Assembly: GCA_027624795.1 (NCBI GenBank) | Contig: JAQBTX010000002.1 | Span: 1-43,669 of the forward strand | Length of the DNA stretch: 43,669 nucleotides | Reading direction: 5' to 3' | Origin: a bacterium | Lineage (GTDB): Bacteria; Patescibacteriota; Microgenomatia; UBA1406; GWC2-37-13 | Shown: positions 5,352 through 32,409 of the stretch, one piece after another | Position numbering within the stretch: the stretch's first letter is position 1 | Layout: every line of letters starts with the position of its first letter | The notes under the pieces: generated by a model | Told to the model about the DNA's origin: nothing | Database searches by the model: none | The model's input: the letters and a program-made list of their open reading frames with translations, nothing else | Translations under genes and position numbers: made by a program

Positions 5352-5416
5352 TGTCATCCTCGCGGACGCGGGGATCCACCATAGAATATGGATTCCCGAT
5401 CAGGTCGGGAATGACA
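5352..5416. repeat. Dispersed TGTCAT...ATGACA palindromic element
   Basis: Ends in TGTCAT and ATGACA, with a strong inner hairpin TTCCCGA-TCAGG-TCGGGAA near the right end and a GGATCC/GGATTC core. It belongs to the same broad class as 5452-5546, 10376-10471 and 20247-20302. Non-coding; it could act as a transcription terminator or RNA-end element. Confidence 0.75.
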
Positions 5417-5451
5417 AAGTATGTCGACAAGAGAGCGTCGGGGTATCTCCT

Positions 5452-5546
5452 TGTCATTCTGACCCCGAGCACTCGGGGGAAGAATCCATACCCTTCGTAT
5501 TAACGATACATGGATCCTTCCCCCGCTAAGCGGGGTCAGGATGACA
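5452..5546. repeat. Dispersed TGTCAT...ATGACA palindromic element
   Basis: A 95-bp element with 16-bp terminal inverted repeats (one mismatch): TGTCATTCTGACCCCG at the left and CGGGGTCAGGATGACA at the right. The core contains GAATCCAT and TACATGGATCCTTC. The right half closely matches 10376-10471, so the two copies are homologous. Confidence 0.85.
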
Positions 5547-13695: not shown

Positions 13696-14709
13696 CTATT
13701 TTGTCGCTATCCAGCGCTCTGCATCAAGTGAGGCAGCTATCCCCATTCCGGAAGCTGTTCCCGCTTGACGGTAGGTATGATCAACACAGTCACCAGCCGC
13801 AAATATACCAGAAATTGAAGTCATTGATTGATATTTATAGTTAAACATACCCTCCATAGATCCCCCTTCAAGAAGGGGGTGCCCGTCAGGGTGGGGGATG
13901 TTCTTTGCGATATTAATTGCCGCCACTGCACTTGTTACTATATATCCTTTTTCATCAAGTATCACATTATCTTTAAATACTTCAGTATCCGGTTTGTGTC
14001 CAATGGCGATAAATAATCCATCAACCGATAATGATCGGGCATCAATCTTTGACGTACCCACTTCAAGCTTAATCCCCTCTACTCTCTGTTCACCAACCAC
14101 CTCACGAATAGATGCGTTCATAATAGTCTCAATTTTAGGATTTTCTTTCACCCGAGCCTGCATAATTATTGAGGCTCTGAAGCTATCTTTTCGATGAATC
14201 AGGTACACTTTTTTAGCAAACTTCGAAAGGGTCTGCGCTTCTTCCATCGCTGTGTCTCCGCCCCCAACTACAGCCACTATTTTATCTTTAAAAAAGAAGC
14301 CGTCACAAGTGGCGCAAGCAGACACGCCCTTACCCCTAAGTCTTGTTTCAGACTCAAGTCCGAGCCAGAGGGCTTTGGCACCTGTGGCTATAATGATAGA
14401 TTTTGTTGAGTATTCTGTTTTTGATGTCTTAATGGTAAAGGGTAATGAGGAGCTTACTATTTGTTTTACATTATCGTCGAGTATTTCCGTGCCGAATCTT
14501 AGTGCTTGTTTACGCAGTGTTTGAATCAAATCCGGACCCATTATTTCTTCGTATCCAGGGAAGTTTTCTACTTCAGTAGTAAGCATCAGTTGACCACCTG
14601 GAGGGGATCCTGCAAAAACAAGAGGGTTGAGCCCAGCTCGAGCAGTGTAGAGGGCTGCACTTAAGCCTGCAGGGCCTCCACCGATGATTATAACGTTACG
14701 TGTCTCCAT
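13696..14709 (-). CDS. trxB: Thioredoxin reductase with an in-frame palindromic insertion
   Basis: 337 residues. NADPH-dependent flavoprotein that reduces thioredoxin. It has the FAD motif GGGPAGLSAALYTARAG, the redox centre CATCDGFFF, the NADPH motif VVGGGDTAMEEA and the C-terminal FAD motif GIFAAGDCVD. It is longer than the usual 305-320 residues because of an extra segment around residues 269-283 (NIPHPDGHPLLEGG), encoded by a palindromic DNA repeat. The insertion lies in a surface loop just before the last FAD-binding motif and keeps the frame, so the enzyme is probably active. It lies 20 bp downstream of the csoR-like gene but appears to have its own -10 box. Confidence 0.93.
   Translation of the reverse strand: METRNVIIIGGGPAGLSAALYTARAGLNPLVFAGSPPGGQLMLTTEVENFPGYEEIMGPDLIQTLRKQALRFGTEILDDNVKQIVSSSLPFTIKTSKTEYSTKSIIIATGAKALWLGLESETRLRGKGVSACATCDGFFFKDKIVAVVGGGDTAMEEAQTLSKFAKKVYLIHRKDSFRASIIMQARVKENPKIETIMNASIREVVGEQRVEGIKLEVGTSKIDARSLSVDGLFIAIGHKPDTEVFKDNVILDEKGYIVTSAVAAINIAKNIPHPDGHPLLEGGSMEGMFNYKYQSMTSISGIFAAGDCVDHTYRQAGTASGMGIAASLDAERWIATK
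13859..13900. repeat. In-frame palindromic repeat inside trxB
   Basis: Contains the perfect hairpin CCCCCTTC-AA-GAAGGGGG (13862-13879), enclosed by GATCCCCC and GGGGGATG. The left hairpin is nearly identical to one inside tatD (22392-22409) and is translated in the same frame there: PLLEGG here, PLPEGG in tatD. Confidence 0.8.
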
Positions 14710-21718: not shown

Positions 21719-22666
21719 TTACACAATATTAAACAGTCTTTTCCCATTTTCAGTAGTGATACGATCAACTTCCTCAACAGTCAATCCTTTGATTTTTGCC
21801 ACCGATTGGGCAATATAAGAGAGATTAGCTGGTTCGTTTGGGTATTTCTTTTGCGAGAGTAAGGGCTCAGGGAGAATGTATGGGCTGTCTGTTTCGAGCA
21901 CTAACATTTCGATCGGCACTGACCGAATAAAATCTTGCTTAACCTTATCATACGTTACGTCACCATCTACCCCTATGAACATATGATGGTCTTTGGCGAT
22001 AGATAAAAGACGTTCGTCTGCCTCACAACAATGAAGAACGCTTCGACCTTCAAGCTTTGGATCCCACGCATCACTTAGTATCGAAACGAGCTCATTGGCA
22101 GCTTCCCTGTTATGCAAAATGATACTTTTGCCATATTGAATGGCAAGCCGCATGTGTTTGCGAAATAACGCACGTTGTGTTTCTAAAAAGCGCTCGTCCA
22201 CCGCATATTGCGCATACTTAGTATTTTCATAAACATGCCTATCCATACCTACTTCACCAATGGCAACTACTTTTGGGTGAGAAAGGAGTGATTCAATTTC
22301 ATAAAGATCGTCTGAAATATATTTTTTGATTTCTTCTGAACATCCCTCCCCCTTCGGGTACTCCCTTTGTAAGGGAGATCTAGTAGCAGGTCCCCCTTCA
22401 GGAAGGGGGTCTCTCCCGACTTGTCGGGAGAGAGGGGATGTTTTCAATGAGTTTTTGAGATATTTAGCTACATGATGTGGATGTATGCCAACTGCCGCGT
22501 ATATATGATCGTTTTCTTGGGCAATTCTCACTGCTTCACGAGATGTTTTTACATCAGTTCCCGGAACCACCATGTGGGTAACTCTGGCTGCATGAGCACG
22601 GTCAATCACTTCTGCTACATTCTTCTTAAATCGCTTGAAATTGAGATGTGTATGAGTATCGAACAT
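21719..22666 (-). CDS. tatD: TatD-family metal-dependent DNase with an in-frame palindromic insertion
   Basis: 315 residues. TIM-barrel hydrolase of the TatD family, which acts as a 3'-5' exonuclease or in DNA repair. Metal-site motifs are visible: FDTHTHLNF, VVAIGEVGMD, ILHNREA, VLHCCEA and LVLETDSPYI. TatD is usually about 260 residues. The excess lies mostly at residues 75-108, encoded by a cluster of three hairpins (22341-22443), in a loop before the HPKVVAIGE strand. I chose the ATG at 22666 because it starts at the conserved FDTHTHL and lies 7 nt from a -10 box; upstream in-frame ATGs would overlap divergent rpiB. Confidence 0.88.
   Translation of the reverse strand: MFDTHTHLNFKRFKKNVAEVIDRAHAARVTHMVVPGTDVKTSREAVRIAQENDHIYAAVGIHPHHVAKYLKNSLKTSPLSRQVGRDPLPEGGPATRSPLQREYPKGEGCSEEIKKYISDDLYEIESLLSHPKVVAIGEVGMDRHVYENTKYAQYAVDERFLETQRALFRKHMRLAIQYGKSIILHNREAANELVSILSDAWDPKLEGRSVLHCCEADERLLSIAKDHHMFIGVDGDVTYDKVKQDFIRSVPIEMLVLETDSPYILPEPLLSQKKYPNEPANLSYIAQSVAKIKGLTVEEVDRITTENGKRLFNIV
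22341..22443. repeat. In-frame palindromic repeat cluster inside tatD
   Basis: Three adjacent perfect hairpins: CTCCCTT-TGT-AAGGGAG (22361-22377), CCCCCTTC-AG-GAAGGGGG (22392-22409) and CTCTCCCGAC-TT-GTCGGGAGAG (22411-22432). The insert is flanked by CATCCCT and GGGGATG. The middle hairpin matches that inside trxB. The frame stays open and adds about 33 residues rich in Pro, Gly and Arg. Confidence 0.85.
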
Positions 22667-31232: not shown

Positions 31233-31305
31233 ACTTCCATGGTACCGAAATTTGTGCTATTTTACCACTTCAAGTGGTGCAATTTCCGGCATAATAGTCA
31301 AAATG

Positions 31306-32366
31306 TGTGGTATTTTTGATTTTATTTTAACTTCAGATAGAAGTACCAATTAATAAAATTAATCTTCCTTTTTCTGGTTAATCCTTTATGAACTGCAAGC
31401 TTCTGTTTTAGGTGTTTAAACTCTGCTTCAAGTCCGTTTGTATCTTTACAAAGTTGAGGATAATCTAGGTAAAGAAATAGGTTATTTAAAGACATTTTTA
31501 ATGCTCTAAACGATCTCCTTACATTTTTATGAGTGTACCACCAGTGTTTGCAATCAACAGCGTAGGATCTTTCATTTAATTGGTCTTTGTGTTTTTCTTC
31601 AAATCTTTGTAACCAGCGTACCCAAATTGTCTTTTCATTTCTCGTTTTAACCTGATTTAAAAACTTCACAATTTCTAAAAGTTGTATTCCTGCCTCAGTC
31701 TCTGGATATTGTGTTAAATACGTCTGACAGAACCTTTGAGTATGTATCAAACATCTCTGATGAGGAATGTCAGGATACCTGTTTTTTGAGGCTGAAGTGA
31801 TGCTTCCATGCCAGTCACTGGTTATTCCAATCACCTTGTATCCAAGTTTATGTAACCTTGAGAAATTATCAAGATAACTAAAGTAACTTTCCCTCTGTAC
31901 AAAATCCCACAAGATAATATTTTGTTTTTCTTTAAATACTAAAACACAACCCCATCGACCAAAATATGTACCATCAACTTTTAGATATATTTCTTTACTG
32001 TTACTTAGTGGTTTTAATGTAAAAGTTTTATCCAAGAATGTATCAAAATGTCGTCTTAACGTACTTGGATATACTTTTACACCTCTGAATTTACTTAACG
32101 ATTCAATCGTTACGCTAGTTAAGATCCAGGACTTAAACAGACTGAAATAGCGGTTTGATTTTATCCTCTTTCTTGGAGTAAATGTCTTTCTGCATGTTAA
32201 GCATTTGAAGCGAAGTGTTCCTGACTTTGATCTTCCGTGACTTACTAACTTTTGACTACAAACTGGACAGTGAAATCGATACCTTTTTTAAAATTTGAAA
32301 TGTTCATATTTGAATTGTACAGGTTCAGCGCGTATTTACAAGCTATATCTCTGATTTATACCACAC
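31306..32366 (-). mobile_element. Insertion sequence with 9-bp terminal inverted repeats
   Basis: About 1.06 kb. GTGTGGTAT at the left end (31306-31314) and ATACCACAC at the right end (32358-32366) are perfect inverse copies; beyond 9 bp the match is partial. It contains a single transposase gene on the minus strand. No target-site duplication could be recognised, so the exact ends are uncertain. It lies between the kefB-like gene and a toxin-antitoxin module. Confidence 0.7.
31322..32307 (-). pseudogene. Zinc-ribbon / MULE-like DDE transposase, frameshifted near the N-terminus
   Basis: An ATG at 32307 opens a frame reading MNISNFKKG. After a run of six A (32284-32289) the rest of the protein continues in the neighbouring frame: RYRFHCPVCSQKLVSHG and CLTCRKTF form a zinc ribbon, then an IS256/MULE-like core with VDGTYFGRWG, ITSDWHGSITSA, HQRCLIHTQRF and NGLEAEFKHLKQ. 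One extra A would restore a single frame of about 328 residues. Either the element is inactive, or slippage on the A-run produces the enzyme. Translation from the TTG at 32035 alone would lose the zinc ribbon. Confidence 0.75.
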
Positions 32367-32409
32367 TTATTGAGTATTGTGCCAATAATGACATACTGCA
32401 GGATACAAG

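Follow-up and report, generated by a model that had tools for sequence, protein, structure and literature searches.

The window analysed here, a stretch of 43,669 nucleotides from a metagenome-assembled genome (MAG) of Ca. Roizmanbacteria (1.07 Mb, 98% complete), carries on its reverse strand a tatD gene (21719..22666) whose 315-residue product includes an insert at residues about 76 to 109. Despite this insert, the ORF matched the TatD_DNase profile (PF01026, E=1e-65) over positions 1-253 of 253, the catalytic motifs were intact, and a search of the own genome with tatD returned a single match. The AlphaFold2 model of the protein with its insert showed a mean pLDDT of 89.7, residues 77-99, inside the insert, being the sole segment below 50 in an otherwise confident barrel, and its best PDB matches were TatD DNases, with a TM-score of about 0.9 (target length). 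The model thus places the insert in what would be a disordered loop. Named relatives found through TatD belonged to Ca. Roizmanbacteria (Microgenomates/Patescibacteria).

The insert corresponds to a complete composite palindromic element of 104 bp (22339..22442, reverse strand), built from a pair of inverted units, each some 45 bp long and with two hairpins, inside 8-bp terminal inverted repeats, AACATCCC (22339..22346) and GGGATGTT (22435..22442). The left unit comprises a weak hairpin, CCCCCTTCGGG (CCC-TTC-GGG, 22348..22358), as its variable module, and a perfect hairpin, CTCCCTT-TGT-AAGGGAG (22361..22377), as its conserved core. A linker that is divergent among orthologues (22378..22391) joins it to the right unit, in which the conserved core is the perfect hairpin CCCCCTTCAGGAAGGGGG (CCCCCTTC-AG-GAAGGGGG, 22392..22409), encoding PLPEGG on the coding strand, and the variable module is the perfect hairpin TCTCTCCCGACTTGTCGGGAGAGA (TCTCTCCCGAC-TT-GTCGGGAGAGA, 22410..22433). 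The order within a unit is AACATCCC, variable hairpin, conserved hairpin (CTCCCTT..AAGGGAG or CCCCCTTC..GAAGGGGG) and AYCTA, with the short linker lying between both units. The coding strand of the element was predicted to fold with -57.7 kcal/mol (z = -5.4), a value equalled by none of 200 shuffled sequences. The initial annotation had described here a cluster of three perfect hairpins, all of which are present and perfect, but it overlooked the terminal inverted repeats, the fourth, weak hairpin and the half-unit layout; its limits (22341-22443) shift to 22339-22442, and the approximately 33 residues that it proposed as added become 34 codons.

A second copy was found in the window within trxB (13696..14709, reverse strand, 337 residues, Pyr_redox_2 E=7e-46, orthologues found), where a half element, NIPHPDGHPLLEGGS (13858..13902, reverse strand), consisting of exactly one unit, the right one, is inserted in frame. 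As first noticed from the letters alone, the middle hairpin of tatD has a match in trxB, and both genes read it in a common frame, giving PLPEGG in the former and PLLEGG in the latter. The trxB gene of the congener G005 bears a matching half element, identical at 44 of 45 bases, and the tatD site is also occupied in this genome.

Searches of the own genome, completed with individual retrieved genome stretches on which copy counts are also based, detected 17 matches to the element, query included; the 16 further ones (best E = 7e-19) rule out a chance origin of the tatD palindromes. In-frame insertions were found in at least 10 unrelated host genes of this genome: in addition to tatD and trxB, those encoding leucyl-tRNA synthetase (leuS), GatB (gatB), valyl-tRNA synthetase (valS), a protein like the dihydroorotate dehydrogenase electron-transfer subunit (pyrK-like), MiaA (miaA, at two sites), an ATP-citrate-synthase-like protein, PolX (polX) and transketolase (tkt). 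In most cases, domains of the host family were found on both flanks of the insert. Congeners provided extra in-frame hosts, among them RNase H and the citrate-binding subunit of ATP-citrate lyase, and also insert-free orthologues of gatB and tatD, as in G001. The genome-wide search and the comparison with insert-free orthologues proposed in the initial annotation thus returned both the dispersed related copies in unrelated genes and the empty counterparts. The element was present in four of the seven genomes of the genus, with one weak match elsewhere, 57 genomes being searched, and neither its consensus nor its unit pattern gave any copy in collections of phages, plasmids and viral contigs. 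Most complete copies measured 94 to 126 bp, and all the full-length copies examined lay within long ORFs, whereas copies outside genes were mostly single units, several of them at 8 bp or less from a stop codon. Half-units within about 8 bp of a stop codon, as if serving as transcript 3' ends, were seen at L017 (6797-6838), L019 (10974-11014), L022 (4906-4953) and L066 (1501-1545). The tatD insert is, in summary, one copy of a palindromic element of about 100 bases present in at least a dozen housekeeping genes of an uncultured genus of Patescibacteria.

The whole dataset consists of MAG sequences, which would allow the host genes, tatD included, to be decaying pseudogenes, or the inserts to be assembly errors. 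This is hardly credible, as at least some of leuS, valS and gatB must be indispensable, no second copy of gatB was found in the own genome, the ORFs are intact, and identical sites recur in separately assembled congeners. The decay of tatD, contemplated in the initial annotation as an objection, finds no echo in an ORF that is full-length, has a single copy and keeps its conserved motifs.

Other palindromic and repeat-like sequences were also observed. Smaller palindromes appeared nested within the hairpins of the element (L036, L014, L018, L015 and L012, 1387-1528). These secondary palindromes lengthen several in-gene copies by exactly 7 codons, versus 20 bp for a non-coding copy. In relatives (L037, L040, L041, L045), the TatD loop that follows GIHPHH contains other repeat-like peptides (SFPRKRESR..IPDQVGDD, HRDSRLRGNDN, PDSDPESRKDW.. 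and SFDKLRIDPERSR), so that in-frame repeats seem to have a hotspot in this loop. Similarly, one loop of GatB (L013, L140, L143) houses different palindromic inserts depending on the genome, with VIASAAKQS..SPRNDK in the own one. A second family of elements, with ACCACC/GGTGGT ends and an identical two-unit layout, occupies in-frame sites in leuS and further ORFs of this genome, as well as in the gatB genes of G005 and another genus; its copies include those at L016 (13025-13139), L020 (855-930), L021 and L012 (7545-7590), several of them in long ORFs. Finally, three clustered GC-rich palindromes, ATTCCCGA..TCGGGAAT, CCCCGAG..CTCGGGG and CCCCGCTAAGCGGGG, are located at positions 5392-5535 of the window, with similar ones elsewhere in the genome.

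Regarding the reading frame, the right-hand unit uses the same one of the six frames at every full site, even though two to five of them are open. If open frames were equally likely, and presuming that the sites are independent, the probability of this agreement at 11 sites would be approximately 3/622,080, or about 5e-6. The phases at which the inserts start (KHP, NIP, TSP) and end (ML, DV, CS) vary, but the right-hand core is invariably read as PL(P/L)EGG or a near variant, and the left-hand core as DLPxEGST, tatD and the second miaA site being the exceptions. At the nine sites offering a choice among open sense frames, the more hydrophilic one was used in all cases, from which we infer that the bias arose after insertion, through selection for a peptide that is hydrophilic and disordered.

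These data also bear on whether the element ever reaches the protein, its translation being predicted from ORFs. An intron-like or translationally bypassed segment, removed before or during protein synthesis, would fit the stable hairpins closed by terminal repeats. However, the frames are open at all in-gene sites, the nested insertions within genes are multiples of three, a single frame is favoured, and Rfam gave no match in the window at gathering scores, all of which make such a removal most improbable. In particular, the splicing that the initial annotation held out as an objection is argued against, at the level of sequence, by an insert that is open and constrained in frame.

Five in-gene sites are common to two species (tatD, valS, pyrK-like, ATP-citrate-synthase-like and trxB), transketolase being the sixth. 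Among codons for the same amino acid, which are incompletely independent, the host genes showed synonymous differences at 686 of 1318, but the inserts at 6 of 106 (p=1.3e-23), and the low synonymous change in the inserts was visible in each of the five genes. The core hairpins differed at 11 of 146 positions, in contrast to 20 of 48 in the linkers (p=2.5e-7). An automatic comparison of stems and loops was not significant (p=0.06), because it had classed the terminal repeats as loop, whereas the narrower comparison of cores and linkers was. Thus, the hairpins are fixed at the DNA level, with the linker behaving like host sequence. Were the inserts simply selfish DNA caught within genes, this near absence of synonymous change would not be expected, and it counts against the explanation that we prefer, in which miniature elements spread through the genus and were then inherited.

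One way to account for this conservation is domestication, in which each in-gene copy would have a function at the nucleotide level, as a binding site or an mRNA structure, with selection acting locus by locus on hairpins and terminal repeats. In addition to the substitution patterns above, the features that orthologues share in a locus-specific manner, such as the frame and the CTAGATCT linker of tatD or the ERSEG module of the citrate-synthase-like gene, are consistent with it, as they suggest a vertical inheritance of the inserts. Nevertheless, the host genes have no evident pathway in common, and no single insertion site can be essential, since some congeners, G001 among them, have neither the tatD nor the gatB insert. 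Moreover, the hairpin adjoining each terminus appears swapped or interrupted between orthologues. Hence, we regard domestication as rather unlikely.

Those swapped modules point instead to some exchange between copies. The tatD gene of G000 has a module also found in copies of the second family, whereas that of G005 has another, and the same nested palindrome is present in two genes of G000 but missing from their orthologues; these sequence patterns would favour a certain degree of copy-to-copy exchange. Repeated overwriting, through short-tract conversion or template switching among copies, could then homogenise the hairpins while the consensus of the family is constrained, and we consider this a possible, if tentative, account of the conservation. 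By itself, however, conversion would let the consensus drift neutrally between species, yet the consensus is identical in G000, G001 and G005; therefore, the family must be subject to some sequence-specific constraint.

A search for a mobiliser led to two Y1 transposase genes in the own genome (L009, L010), both flanked by hairpins of their own (GGGTCTGTCCCG.. and CTCGGGAGTTGACA..) that differ from those of the element. The paired arrangement of short inverted palindromic units, together with these genes, would be expected from a REPIN moved by a RAYT (REP-associated tyrosine transposase). Nonetheless, the distribution of Y1 genes does not track that of the element, as G001 contains copies without a Y1 gene, whereas G002 and G004 contain Y1 genes without copies, and the full-length copies found sit in long ORFs instead of being mostly extragenic. 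RAYT mobilisation was consequently rejected, a REPIN of this kind being quite improbable. The window also includes a mutator/IS66-like insertion sequence (31288-32383) with imperfect 26-bp terminal repeats (GGCAYAATA..GTGTGGTAT), which was discarded as the mobiliser as its ends differ from those of the element. Thus, no parent transposase with the ends of the element was found among this insertion sequence and the two Y1 genes. No target-site duplication was visible at the insertion points, whose boundaries cannot be placed by comparison with insert-free relatives that are too divergent. The initial proposal of a mobile element that tolerates translation is then largely supported, with the element taken as originally mobile, by the dispersed copies, the insert-free orthologues and the single frame; active transposition and a mobilising enzyme were not found.

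Rickettsia provides the best-known cases of palindromes inserted in frame in functional genes. The palindromic elements of this genus (RPEs) lie in frame in many genes, and the same has been considered conceivable in other prokaryotes (review, PMC10969869). The element described here resembles them in being short palindromic DNA of mobile type, in frame in many unrelated genes, predicted to be translated and absent from some orthologues (PMC10969869), with 104 bp in a stable fold, in-frame copies in at least 10 genes and insert-free gatB and tatD. Unlike RPEs, with which it was compared by description, it belongs to Patescibacteria, has the composite structure of an inverted dimer that bears terminal repeats and contains nested palindromes, and conserves its hairpins at synonymous sites over genus-level divergence. 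REPINs, in turn, are inverted pairs of REPs, tied to RAYTs and mostly extragenic (PMC3116915). The element shares with REPINs and BIMEs the two inverted short palindromic units joined by a linker, as well as the existence of single-unit copies (PMC3116915), but its full copies are inside genes, it is not obviously GTAG-tagged, and no RAYT carries its unit. With MITEs such as QMITE1/2 of Coxiella, some copies of which are in ORFs, it has in common a non-autonomous nature, a size of about 100 bp, terminal inverted repeats (8 bp here) and copies in ORFs (PMC5896051); no target-site duplication was visible, and the insertion sequence of the window and the two Y1 genes have other ends. A literature search, covering for the most part papers available without subscription, returned no report of such elements for Patescibacteria. 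The best reading is that of a new family of protein-coding palindromes, RPE-like in the way it works and REPIN-like in its build, without the link to RAYTs.

Overall, we consider it probable that short palindromic miniature elements, forming a family specific to this lineage, spread within this genus of Roizmanbacteria, their in-gene copies being translated as disordered loops and inherited across species. Some enzyme acting in trans would have moved the elements in the past, and those copies inserted where housekeeping proteins have surface loops or boundaries between domains would have been kept. Selection after insertion may have retained the orientation and frame that give a hydrophilic, Pro/Gly-rich peptide, which would be translated as a disordered loop and then passed on across species, while a sequence-specific factor, either the mobiliser or a DNA- or RNA-binding protein, could hold hairpin and terminal sequences constant. 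For annotators, the implication is that unusual loops rich in Pro/Gly in these proteins derive from the element.

That a genus-specific factor binds the hairpin and terminal sequences in DNA or mRNA, with the inserts recruited through site-by-site nucleotide-level selection in essential genes, seems to us rather unlikely; if true, protein-coding genes would at the same time carry a dispersed recognition element. The persistence of such DNA within genes becomes testable as selfish spread, copy-to-copy overwriting or recruited function, and the presence of in-frame palindromes in essential genes of the streamlined Patescibacteria suggests that the phenomenon is broader than Rickettsia.
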